Positions 1,986 through 8,224 of a stretch of 22,609 nucleotides of DNA are shown piece by piece. This DNA comes from a virus. The position numbers and the translations under genes were made by a program. Within the stretch, counting starts at the first letter, position 1, and each line of letters starts with the position of its first letter. The notes under the pieces are model-generated. The model saw only the letters and a program-made list of their open reading frames with translations. It ran no database searches and was not told the DNA's origin. The stretch lies in the IMG/VR virus record IMGVR_UViG_3300028809_000075, positions 1 through 22,609 of that record; one strand, written 5' to 3'.

Positions 1986-2687
1986 TCAGTTCTTGGATTT
2001 GGGCAGGGCGCGCGGGCTATAACCGCCCACAACAACGCCTCGTGCGATGACCTCGGTTTCGCCATCCGAGCCATTCAGCGGAAACGCCTGGTGCTTCGGG
2101 TTCGAGCTGTGCGGCACAAGATACCAGCCGCCCTTTCGGCGCTCTGCCGCCTTGAGCGTGATCTCGACTAACTGCCCCCCGGCCCGTTGCCGCTCAACGT
2201 GGAGGAGCATCCCCTCTACCAACGCCAGTCCACTGTCCGCAAAGTCGACGCATGTAACTGTGCTGCCGTCTGGGTAATCCAGATCCATCGAGTCGCCTAC
2301 GACCCGCAGCGTGTATTGTTTTGCATGTGGAAAGCGCGGGTCTCTAACGACCGGCACCATCTCGTTATTAGCCCCTTCAATAGCGTCGGTTGTCTCCAAC
2401 CAATGCCCAGCTTGGATAGTACCGAGAAGGGGCAAGCCCGCAACATCTATTTCGTAGGGTTCAACCCCGTTTGGGGAAATCTCCCCCTGGCCGGTGAGCA
2501 GCCACATTAGCGAGACCTTGAATTTCCTAGCGTATTTTTCCGCGACCGGGGTTCGGATGCCGCTAGTGCCGTTTTCGTGAGAGTAGTAGGTCGGCTCCTT
2601 AACACCTAGCGCCCGTGCGGCGTCAGCGGCGGTTTCATAACCAGCCCTTTCGCGAGCAATGATTAGGCGTTCGTTAATCTCGGTCAT
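1986..2687 (-). CDS. CI-like lysogeny repressor, HTH + S24/LexA-type peptidase (233 aa)
   Basis: This is the prophage repressor. Residues about 5-65 form an XRE-type helix-turn-helix (AADAARALGVKEPTYYSHENG). Residues about 85-225 form an S24 (LexA/CI) autoprotease domain. The cleavage-site dipeptide is Ala93-Gly94 (TIQAGHW), the catalytic serine is Ser133 in GDSM, and the lysine is Lys179 in ITLKAAER. All three elements are present, so RecA-stimulated self-cleavage and SOS induction are expected. The ATG at 2687 was chosen over an open frame reaching 2762, because that extension would read through the operators. The gene diverges from the Cro-like gene and lies next to the leftward promoter. 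Confidence 0.93.
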   Translation of the reverse strand: MTEINERLIIARERAGYETAADAARALGVKEPTYYSHENGTSGIRTPVAEKYARKFKVSLMWLLTGQGEISPNGVEPYEIDVAGLPLLGTIQAGHWLETTDAIEGANNEMVPVVRDPRFPHAKQYTLRVVGDSMDLDYPDGSTVTCVDFADSGLALVEGMLLHVERQRAGGQLVEITLKAAERRKGGWYLVPHSSNPKHQAFPLNGSDGETEVIARGVVVGGYSPRALPKSKN

Positions 2688-2712
2688 AGCGGCGGCACCA
2701 TGCCATAGGAGC

Positions 2713-4273: not shown

Positions 4274-5083
4274 ATGTCCACCGACCTCCCGATCAACAAG
4301 ATCATTGCCCGCGACGATGCCCGCGCCATCAATGCCGAGACTGTCGTCGGATTGGCCGAGAGCATCGCCAATGTTGGGCTGATCAACCCTATCCGTGTCC
4401 GTGTTGCCGGGGATGGTTGGGAGGTCATCGCTGGCGTGCACCGGCTTGAAGCTTGCAAGAGCCTGGGGCTGGTCGACATCCCGGCCGATATTGTAGCCGA
4501 TGACGATCTGCACGCCGAGTTGGCGATGATCGATGAGAACCTGTGTCGGGCGGAGTTGACGCCGTCCGACCGGGCTCGCCAGACCGCACGCCGCAAGGCC
4601 ATCTATCTCGAGCTGTATCCCGAGACGGCGGAGCACGTTGCTGGCGGTAAGGGCAACGCGACGGTGGACAAGTTGTCCGCTGTTCAGTCGTTCGCAGCCA
4701 GCACCGCCGCCCTCTCCGGCGTGGATGAGCGCACAGTGCGCCGTGATGCCGAGCGCGGCCAGAAGATCCTGCCCGAGGTTATGGACCTTATCGCAGGCAC
4801 CAAGCTCGACACGGGCACCTATCTGGACAAGCTCAAGGCGATGCCGGGGAGCGAACAGTTTCGGGCAGCTCAACGCGACCTCCTGCATCTTCGTCATCAA
4901 GAGCGGGTCGCTATGCAGGCCCGTACCAAGATCAAGGTGGCCGACGCCCCGCTGAACGACGAGGCCGCTCAAGAGCGGCAGGTGGCGGCTCTTATGTCGG
5001 CATGGAACAAGGCATCGGCCGAGGCGCGTCAGGAGTTTCTGGAGCGCATCGAGACGCCAGTTTTTGATAGGTCGGCGGCATGA
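4274..5083 (+). CDS. ParB/Spo0J-like protein with HTH (269 aa)
   Basis: Residues 5-95 form a ParB N-terminal domain: a typical opening (LPINKIIARDDARAIN...VVGLAESIANVGLINPIRVR), GVHRLEA at 54-60 and ENLCRAELTPSDRA at about 89-102, matching the conserved ParB boxes. Residues about 130-160 contain a helix-turn-helix (AASTAALSGVDERTVRRDAE). The C-terminus is helical. ParB proteins are CTP-dependent DNA clamps in partition systems, but no ParA gene is visible here. In phages such proteins may act as transcription regulators or in DNA metabolism. The ATG follows the previous TAA without a gap. The 3' end overlaps the convergent minus-strand gene by 55 bases. Confidence 0.87.
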   Translation: MSTDLPINKIIARDDARAINAETVVGLAESIANVGLINPIRVRVAGDGWEVIAGVHRLEACKSLGLVDIPADIVADDDLHAELAMIDENLCRAELTPSDRARQTARRKAIYLELYPETAEHVAGGKGNATVDKLSAVQSFAASTAALSGVDERTVRRDAERGQKILPEVMDLIAGTKLDTGTYLDKLKAMPGSEQFRAAQRDLLHLRHQERVAMQARTKIKVADAPLNDEAAQERQVAALMSAWNKASAEARQEFLERIETPVFDRSAA

Positions 5084-5439
5084 TCGCGGCCCCCAACCAC
5101 AACGAGTTTGCTCGCCTCTCCCTCGGGGCTCGAGCGAAAGGCCGGACGGCGGAGCTTCCTCCCCTTCGTCGTCCGGCCACCCTCGATCACGCGCAGATGG
5201 CAGTACACAGCCTCGGAGTGGGGCGCTCCGGCTTTGGTAGCTGTGTACTCCCACCTGCTCGCGGGAACTTTGTACGCGGGCGGGCTAACTGGCACCGAGC
5301 CAGCCTCCCTAGACTTGGCCGCGGGCTTCGCGCTCGCGGTCCTTTTGGGCTGAGAGGCGGTTGCAGCCGCCATCTCGCCAACAACCATACCCTGAGCGAG
5401 TGCGTCCGAAAGTGCGTCGCCAAGGGTTCGAAACGTCAT
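5029..5439 (-). CDS. Unrecognised minus-strand gene inside the rightward operon (136 aa)
   Basis: ATG 5439 has a good ribosome site, GGAG eight bases upstream; a TTG at 5445 would add two residues. The N-terminal 25 residues look like a helix (TFRTLGDALSDALAQGMVVGEM), followed by an Ala/Lys/Pro-rich linker and a middle section (WEYTATKAGAPHSEAVYCH) encoded by nested inverted repeats. The C-terminus overlaps the ParB-like gene. The alternative plus-strand frame over this stretch has an improbable Cys/Arg/Gly-rich composition. The mirror-image start region shared with the gene at 5492 supports it being real. No family recognised. Confidence 0.55.
   Translation of the reverse strand: MTFRTLGDALSDALAQGMVVGEMAAATASQPKRTASAKPAAKSREAGSVPVSPPAYKVPASRWEYTATKAGAPHSEAVYCHLRVIEGGRTTKGRKLRRPAFRSSPEGEASKLVVVGGRDHAADLSKTGVSMRSRNS
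5140..5249. repeat. Nested inverted repeats inside a coding frame
   Basis: Two palindromic units lie 23 bases apart. The first pairs GGCCGGACG (5140-5148) with CGTCCGGCC (5170-5178). The second pairs AGTACACAGC (5202-5211) with GCTGTGTACT (5240-5249), with an inner CGGAG/CTCCG pair. Both are perfect within the arms and sit inside the minus-strand frame. Nested palindromes of this size within a gene look like an inserted palindromic repeat element. Confidence 0.6.
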
Positions 5440-5494
5440 TTCCAAGTCTCCAGCTGCCTAGGACCCGAACCTAGGCAAGGAGACTTCGTAAATG
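5437..5494. promoter_or_regulatory. Symmetric palindrome covering two divergent ribosome sites
   Basis: The region between the start codons at 5439 (minus) and 5492 (plus) is a near mirror image. AAGTCTCC (5444-5451) pairs with GGAGACTT (5479-5486), and TGCCTAGG (5455-5462) pairs with CCTAGGCA (5470-5477) around a seven-base loop. Each outer arm is the Shine-Dalgarno region of one of the genes. A transcript from either strand that includes both arms would fold its own ribosome site into the stem. It could also be a protein-binding site. Confidence 0.65.
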
Positions 5495-5890
5495 TCCAAA
5501 TCATCGTCGGAGAAATCAGAAATGTCTGAGATCGCGTGGGCGTCAAATGCGCTTCAAGAACGCATCGCACCGGTCGGTAGTTCACAGTTTGTCGAAACGC
5601 GCATCCGCAAGGCCGCCACTGCCTTGGGGTGGAAGTTCAGCCGAGCCAGGACGGTTTGGTACGGAGACGAGCGCGCGAGCATCAAGCCGCGGGAATTGCG
5701 GCGCATCGAGGAAGTTGCGGGGATCCAATATGGCCGTGAAGAAATCAGAGACGTCGATGCGCTCATCAACAGCGCCGACGCTCTCCTTATGGGCGTCAAT
5801 TCGGATTTCTACAGCGCGTTCGCTGCTGCGCTCCGCGCGGTGGCTGGCGCTGTTGATCGCTCCCGAGCTTCGAAACGAGACGGTCGCTGA
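5492..5890 (+). CDS. Hypothetical early protein, possibly DNA-binding (132 aa)
   Basis: No firm family. Residues 35-75 (ETRIRKAATALGWKFSRARTVWYGDERASIKPRELRRIEEVAG) have a helix-turn-helix-like rhythm and many basic residues. The rest is helical (DVDALINSADALLMG). A second candidate start, ATG 5522, also has GGAG nine bases upstream, which would shorten the protein by ten residues. The gene sits where lambdoid phages place cII-type regulators, downstream of Cro, but no homology to CII can be claimed. Its start lies in the symmetric palindrome. Confidence 0.72.
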   Translation: MSKSSSEKSEMSEIAWASNALQERIAPVGSSQFVETRIRKAATALGWKFSRARTVWYGDERASIKPRELRRIEEVAGIQYGREEIRDVDALINSADALLMGVNSDFYSAFAAALRAVAGAVDRSRASKRDGR

Positions 5891-5937
5891 TAGCGCCGAC
5901 GATCTCGCCGTCTAACCCATCAACACGGAGAAGATGA

Positions 5938-6120
5938 ATGAGACTGTCTTGGACCGTAGCCTGTGCGCTGGTGGCGTTGGACTGCGCTGAGAAGGCTAGC
6001 GGAGCCCAGCCGCAGCACCTCTTCGTGGCAGACCTTATCTGGCTCTGGTGGGTCGCCGCAGCCATCTGGAGCGTCATCGCCGCCGCTACAGCGGTCACCC
6101 GCTGGCAACCCGCCTCCTAA
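5938..6120 (+). CDS. Small membrane protein (60 aa)
   Basis: ATG 5938 has GGAG (5927-5930) seven bases upstream. An overlapping ATG at 5934 in another frame gives only 18 codons. The protein has a short hydrophobic N-terminus (SWTVACALVAL) and a stronger membrane segment at about residues 30-52 (VADLIWLWWVAAAIWSVIAA). It is probably an inner-membrane protein with one or two spans. Function unknown. Confidence 0.6.
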   Translation: MRLSWTVACALVALDCAEKASGAQPQHLFVADLIWLWWVAAAIWSVIAAATAVTRWQPAS

Positions 6121-7455: not shown

Positions 7456-7724
7456 CCTCCTCCCCTAAACACATAGGGAGCGCAGTAGCTGAGGGGACAT
7501 CGGTCCCGGCTGGTTTCTCGCTGCCGTGGAACACGACGCGGACGATGGCGGATGTGTGGGCCGATGACAAGGCGACCGCCAGATCTGAGCATGCCCGGAA
7601 GGCTGGCTTGGGCAGGGCCAAGCAGAAGCGCCAGCAATTTGTCGAAGACTATCAGAAACGCATGAACCTGACGCCACGGGGGAAGATCCCGTTCGCCGGG
7701 TATGACGCAAGCGAGGTGTGGTGA
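7452..7724 (+). CDS. Hypothetical early protein (90 aa)
   Basis: Start at ATG 7452, overlapping the methyltransferase stop by four bases. The N-terminal half is low-complexity (TSSPKHIGSAVAEGTSVPAGFSLPW). The second half is basic and helical (SEHARKAGLGRAKQKRQQFVEDYQKRM). No family recognised. Its position between a methyltransferase and the DnaA-like protein suggests a replication or DNA-handling accessory, but this rests on context only. Confidence 0.72.
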   Translation: MTSSPKHIGSAVAEGTSVPAGFSLPWNTTRTMADVWADDKATARSEHARKAGLGRAKQKRQQFVEDYQKRMNLTPRGKIPFAGYDASEVW

Positions 7725-8224
7725 TGGAGAATGTATCTGGTCTTTGGGAGGGGGAGCGCTCGTCGTCTGGGCTGGTCAGAGTGGCCATCCAGAAGATGGA
7801 TGAGCGGTTCGTGCAGGCGATGGCAGAGGCCCACGCTGACAGAACCACTCCGGTTCGAAGCACTGCCGCTGTGCGTGCGAAACTGAAAGCAAGCGGACGC
7901 GTCGTTACCTCGTCGTCGTCCCTCTCGCTGCATGACGTAGACGGTCTGCAGCTGGCTGACGAGGAGGTAGCCAAAATGAGGGCGGTCCTCAACCAGCCGA
8001 GCGTCAACCGGATCGTGACTGCAGTGGCCAGCAGGACAGGCGTATCGCCCTACAAAATTGCCGGCAAGGGTCGCTCTGCCGATGTGGTGCGTGCGCGCAA
8101 CTGGGCTTTCTTCCTCCTAGGCGAGGACGGTTTCAGCCTGGCCCAGATCGGGAGGATGTTTGGCAAGGACCACACCACCGTTCGGCACGGGATCATCCAG
8201 CACAAGAAGCGGGGAGGGGAGTGA
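7724..8224 (+). CDS. Stand-alone DnaA domain IV DNA-binding protein (166 aa)
   Basis: Residues about 95-163 resemble DnaA domain IV, the part that recognises DnaA boxes: 'VASRTGVSPYKIAGKGRSADVVRARNWAFFLL...FSLAQIGRMFGKDHTTVRHGI'. The sequence KDHTTVRHGI is close to the classical DnaA signature. The AAA+ ATPase domain of DnaA is absent; the N-terminal 90 residues are unrelated and look poorly ordered (a Ser run near 70). The protein could mark a phage origin or compete with host DnaA. ATG 7724 (TGATG overlap) was chosen over two in-frame GTG codons just upstream. Confidence 0.88.
   Translation: MENVSGLWEGERSSSGLVRVAIQKMDERFVQAMAEAHADRTTPVRSTAAVRAKLKASGRVVTSSSSLSLHDVDGLQLADEEVAKMRAVLNQPSVNRIVTAVASRTGVSPYKIAGKGRSADVVRARNWAFFLLGEDGFSLAQIGRMFGKDHTTVRHGIIQHKKRGGE

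Follow-up and report, generated by a model that had tools for sequence, protein, structure and literature searches.

The window, by which we mean the whole stretch of DNA analysed (22,609 nucleotides), is a 22.6-kb virus record in which a mirror-image palindrome separates a gene on the plus strand from a putative, divergent open reading frame (ORF) on the minus strand. The features on which the argument rests are listed below.

1986-2702, minus strand: CI-like repressor gene, left of the palindrome
2762-2953: Cro-like gene, left of the palindrome
4274-5083: ParB-like gene, left of the palindrome
5029..5439, minus strand: putative divergent ORF of 136 aa (the minus ORF), called from the reading frame and its ribosome site
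5352..5376, plus strand: a second hairpin (hairpin A), GAGAGGCGG - TTGCAG - CCGCC(A)TCTC, lying within the minus ORF
5444..5462, plus strand: left arm of the palindrome, AAGTCTCC (5444-5451) + AGC + TGCCTAGG (5455-5462), from sequence, fold and exact repeat matches
5463..5469, plus strand: loop ACCCGAA, a 7-base spacer, from sequence
5470..5486, plus strand: right arm, CCTAGGCA (5470-5477) + A + GGAGACTT (5479-5486), from sequence and fold
5492..5890, plus strand: gene of 132 aa (the plus gene), phrog_27989 family (PHROGs E 8.7e-40)

Elsewhere in the window, a gene of the early region (7718-8224) encodes a protein of 168 aa in which Pfam identifies a DnaA C-terminal domain (E 2.4e-15), and the gap between the cI-like and cro-like genes (2703-2760) holds CCATAGG...CCTATGG repeats, a likely repressor operator whose sequence is unlike that of the palindrome.

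The palindrome and the genes on either side

The minus start at 5439 reads GGAGACTTGGAAATG and the plus start at 5492 reads GGAGACTTCGTAAATG. Read on the minus strand, the left arm contains the ribosome site of the minus start, and the plus ribosome site GGAG (5479-5482), which precedes the ATG at 5492, lies within the right arm. The arms form 8+8 Watson-Crick pairs (16) around a 3x1 internal loop, and the CATTT/AAATG flanks can extend the pairing further. RNA covering 5437-5494 is predicted to fold with -27.5 kcal/mol on the plus strand and -30.9 kcal/mol on the minus strand (z approximately -6 and -5.6), and none of 200 dinucleotide shuffles folded as well on either strand. Sequence, fold and shuffles therefore bear out the sequence-only reading in its description of a mirror-image palindrome of 16 pairs with both ribosome sites in its arms. 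Any pair of facing ribosome sites would produce the CTCC/GGAG part of the symmetry, but not the inner stem of 8 bp.

Searches for known elements returned little at this place. Neither the window nor the palindromes of 17 relatives gave a match at the Rfam gathering score, the one tRNA returned (in L005) being unrelated. No intrinsic terminator, sought as a stem followed by a T run, was present on either strand at 5437-5494, and a promoter search at 5000-6000, confined to the sigma-70-like type, found none. Among other viral contigs, TGCCTAGG-N7-CCTAGGCA was found in a close relative and in two matches without noted flanking resemblance.

Compared with L005, the plus gene has 0/3/14 substitutions by codon position. 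An AlphaFold model built with 27 homologues, in which residues ~10-80 are modelled with confidence, predicts a Cro/C1-like helix-turn-helix fold for residues ~10-82, and fold comparison gave Z 6-7 over ~60 residues to ImmR, SinR, DdrO, ClgR and lambda CI. On this model the product probably has a Cro/C1-like fold and is likely to bind DNA. We grade DNA binding no higher than likely because the Foldseek match to a lambda-repressor-like fold is weak (E >0.3) and a Pfam match is absent. A second in-frame ATG at codon 11 (5522) has its own ribosome site, GGAGAAATCAGAAATG (5509-5524), and is present in 37 of 40 relatives, and the true start of the gene may lie there.

The minus ORF shares 65-68% identity with L006 and L007 over its N-terminal 31 aa. 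Within the window's clade, gaps keep its frame and codon-position bias is absent, so that the coding evidence for it in this clade is weak. A plus-strand ORF of 149 aa (5080-5529), similar to plus ORFs in L006 and L007, spans the palindrome and competes with the minus ORF as the putative coding strand. Further inverted repeats lie inside the minus ORF at 5140-5178 (87% complementary arms) and 5190-5261 (86%).

Position and covariation among relatives

Homologous loci, about 60 and mostly in Rhizobiales phages and prophages, came from 21 genome and 39 viral records, some of them the same or near-identical, and from two annotated Rhizobium phages. These two phages were found by protein; annotated phage DNA and plasmids held no close relatives. 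Named hosts are nearly all Rhizobiales, with one bin labelled Betaproteobacteria. In most loci a palindrome lies within ~60 bp upstream of the first start of the plus gene and extends with its 3' arm to the ribosome site, with sequences that are very different from one locus to another (example arms are CTATGGG/CCCATAG in L038, GGTTCATTGG/CCAATGAACC in L054 and GCCTAGG/CCTAGGC in the window). The loops of many relatives end in GAAC or CAAC, a likeness to the window loop judged by eye. Loci without a clear palindrome are L019 and L034 (both degraded or unclear), L096, L100 and L101. A profile of position peaks at -60 (mean 17.6) and -120 (17.0) against a background of 12.6, and the position is held across proteins that are 40-50% identical, with comparable palindromes rare elsewhere in these loci.

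A short divergent minus gene, its start 46-55 bp away, is present in many clades, and both Rhizobium phages have it annotated as a CDS. The upstream ORF is codirectional (plus) in L013-L017 and L033, where the palindrome is nevertheless present (the short plus ORFs of L013 and L014 were read off the sequence), so the element belongs with the plus gene. At L006 (4899-5010) the locus is recombinant and combines this minus ORF and a palindrome with pairing arms with a plus gene of another family (phrog_35370-like). No consistent palindrome was found by eye among relatives of that L006 plus protein, a result that ties the element to phrog_27989.

Covariation of the arms was measured by cutting the palindromes in the loop and pairing left halves with right halves from other loci. 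Across 40 loci, own arms outpaired swapped arms with z 10.1, or 9.2 in a second implementation. Because own hairpins are chosen as best, the same test was run elsewhere as a control; random windows gave z 1.4-2.4, and other offsets nearby did not exceed 3.7, the second hairpin excepted. Ten held-out loci, fetched after the first analysis, gave a group z of 4.6 over that baseline bias of 1.4-2.4, four of them (L095, L096, L100 and L101) being individually weak or unclear. Since swapping the arms destroys pairing, it is the complementarity that is conserved and not the sequence. Pairing and symmetry, which the sequence-only reading had proposed to look for in relatives as a check on itself, are thus conserved.

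Strand preference and template switching

If pairing were selected in an RNA of one strand, G-U pairs should be tolerated over A-C mismatches on the transcribed strand. No such preference was present in the palindrome helices, which held 18 G-U and 16 A-C, plus 5 and 4 in the held-out loci (23 vs 20). As a yardstick, 28 tRNAs of a single host genome had 24 G-U and 1 A-C in their acceptor and T stems, with stem pairs taken by fixed positions (ARAGORN brackets real pairs only). The palindrome counts come from related loci and are not independent, and the contrast with tRNA is nonetheless large. A looser symmetric count that included long outer extensions gave 76:75, and the stricter count was used instead. 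Equal G-U and A-C leave selection on one-strand RNA pairing unsupported; they are compatible with homogenisation at the DNA level, with a DNA site or with constraint on both strands. The symmetry is hence strand-independent in evolution as well as in form, and these comparisons of sequence indicate that the palindrome is a genuine, conserved, strand-symmetric element before a putative phage regulator gene.

Symmetry without strand preference is what would be expected of a DNA site, and a phage regulator acting as a dimer, for which the plus product is a candidate given its resemblance to the Cro/C1 fold (Z 6-7), could bind the double-stranded palindrome and repress transcription of the adjacent gene or genes. 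We consider such an operator unlikely. Sequence, loop length and bulges differ even among near relatives, whereas the helices of the regulator and its predicted recognition region, GW-S-x-TRTKDxWY, are conserved; the half-site motif does not recur in the window, and the repeat in the cI-cro gap differs from it. The conserved half-site sequence and spacing expected of a dimer operator were not found across the loci, and the suggestion that the palindrome is a dimer-binding operator of fixed sequence loses ground accordingly. A better conserved candidate is TCGGAAATGTCCGA around the first start, which may be an operator for the plus product. This sequence (5486-5500 and homologous places) is palindromic, exact in 14 of 40 relatives and within two mismatches in 28 of 40, and degraded in the window. 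A search for an operator that the palindrome might share with the cI-cro region, or that recurs within the window, found none.

Template switching has arm homogenisation and spacer inversion as its described products (PMC8604942) and can create and maintain RNA hairpins (PMC8794818). Evidence of the second product comes from hairpin A. In clades with a short minus gene, a second covarying hairpin lies ~70-130 bp upstream (arm-swap z 11.3-11.9), of which hairpin A of the window, itself without RNA folding excess (z +0.3/+1.1), may be the smaller counterpart. In near-identical relatives its apex reads either GCCG-TTGGCG-CGGC or GCCG-CGCCAA-CGGC, exact inversions of each other. The two forms separate L036/L043 from L044/L064 and L040 from L047, ~95-110 bp before the plus start, and the inversion converts AAPTAAG of the minus protein into AVGAAAG. 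The palindrome at 5444-5486, whose spacer is constrained by the ribosome sites, showed no such inversion, and arm homogenisation is deduced from covariation across loci and not from reconstructed single events. Spacer inversion was thus seen in the neighbouring hairpin A only, and template switching at the palindrome itself is an inference.

These observations also bear on whether the palindrome does anything at all. Facing ribosome sites, whose CTCC/GGAG gives an automatic seed of symmetry, could have started an inverted repeat that template switching then extends and repairs without any regulatory function; the equality of G-U and A-C agrees with this, and the spacer inversion next door indicates that template switching is active in the region. 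The kept position at this level of protein divergence, the rarity of similar palindromes in the rest of these loci and the persistence of the element where facing ribosome sites are missing speak against such a mutational relic, which we regard as quite unlikely.

Ribosome-site accessibility and a proposed role

In the window, opening the ribosome sites is predicted to cost 12.1 kcal/mol on the plus strand and 12.0 kcal/mol on the minus strand; shuffling the opposite arm lowers these costs to 3.7 and 3.5. Over 40 loci the plus site costs 5.8 kcal/mol to open, compared with 3.4 with shuffled upstream sequence (p 6e-7). By these opening costs, the ribosome site is predicted to lie in a stable hairpin in the window, where the effect is clearest, and over the 40 loci. 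In the 30 divergent loci both sites are affected, the minus site less so (plus site 6.2 vs 3.5, minus site 6.2 vs 4.6 with shuffled arms), and the effect is weak in the eight codirectional loci (5.1 vs 3.1, p 0.08). The plus ribosome site is paired with a probability of 0.76, compared with 0.67 for shuffled sequence and 0.74 with the upstream halves of other loci.

The sequence-only reading had proposed a symmetric switch in which divergent transcripts overlap and a hairpin on each regulates both genes, possibly with pairing between the two RNAs. The part of it that stands is that both ribosome sites are costlier to open, in the window and in the divergent loci. A dependence on the divergent pair does not, as the palindrome persists where the upstream gene is codirectional and the minus gene is missing; coding support for the minus ORF in the window is weak, and the promoter search at 5000-6000 offers no sigma-70-like start for its transcript. 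We therefore hold this switch to be very improbable. A related possibility, which we think improbable, is that one DNA palindrome serves the ribosome sites of both strands and is selected for strand-symmetric complementarity and not for its sequence, with template switching as built-in repair.

The reading we favour, tentatively and at somewhat short of an even chance, is that the palindrome acts in cis on the phrog_27989 regulator gene, as a hairpin that damps translation and whose arms are kept complementary by template switching. Transcripts entering the plus gene from upstream would carry the hairpin, which would lower initiation at the first start and so keep the putative DNA-binding regulator scarce; in the window, a minus-strand transcript would be subject to the same effect. 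Arm complementarity would stem largely from template switching during replication, which copies one arm onto the other and which equal G-U and A-C counts fit as DNA-level homogenisation, while selection would hold the element at its place. Against the damping hairpin, the same equality does not indicate that RNA pairing has been selected on either strand singly, the pairing probability is raised modestly and not above that obtained with other loci's upstream halves, the opening-cost effect is weak in codirectional loci, and initiation at the second start, which lies ten codons further on behind its own ribosome site, could bypass the hairpin.

The locus shares with template-switch-maintained inverted repeats the concerted change of the arms, together with spacer inversion in the neighbouring hairpin A (PMC8604942, PMC8794818). 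Known repeats of this kind are scattered in yeast genes or rRNA, whereas the present element recurs at one regulatory position within a family of phages. Leader hairpins that bury the ribosome site occur in several phage mRNAs, and the palindrome resembles them in that the ribosome site of most loci lies within its 3' arm or borders on it and has a raised opening cost; it differs in having no evolutionary strand preference, a nearly free sequence and no Rfam family, and in that a single hairpin would serve both strands in the window. Aca2 is a phage helix-turn-helix repressor that binds both DNA and RNA. The arrangement here, a small phage protein with a predicted helix-turn-helix beside inverted repeats near a ribosome site, is similar, although the repeat sequence is not conserved. 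Small inversions associated with hairpins occur in chloroplast genomes, where, as in hairpin A, a hairpin spacer is exactly inverted; the present case differs in lying in phage DNA, partly within an ORF and beside a covarying, putatively regulatory palindrome.

Covariation is normally taken as proof of RNA structure. Strong covariation without strand preference, next to a spacer inversion, makes this locus a compact test case for telling RNA selection from DNA template switching. In addition, the uncharacterised phrog_27989 genes can now be assigned a candidate control element and, for their products, a likely fold.
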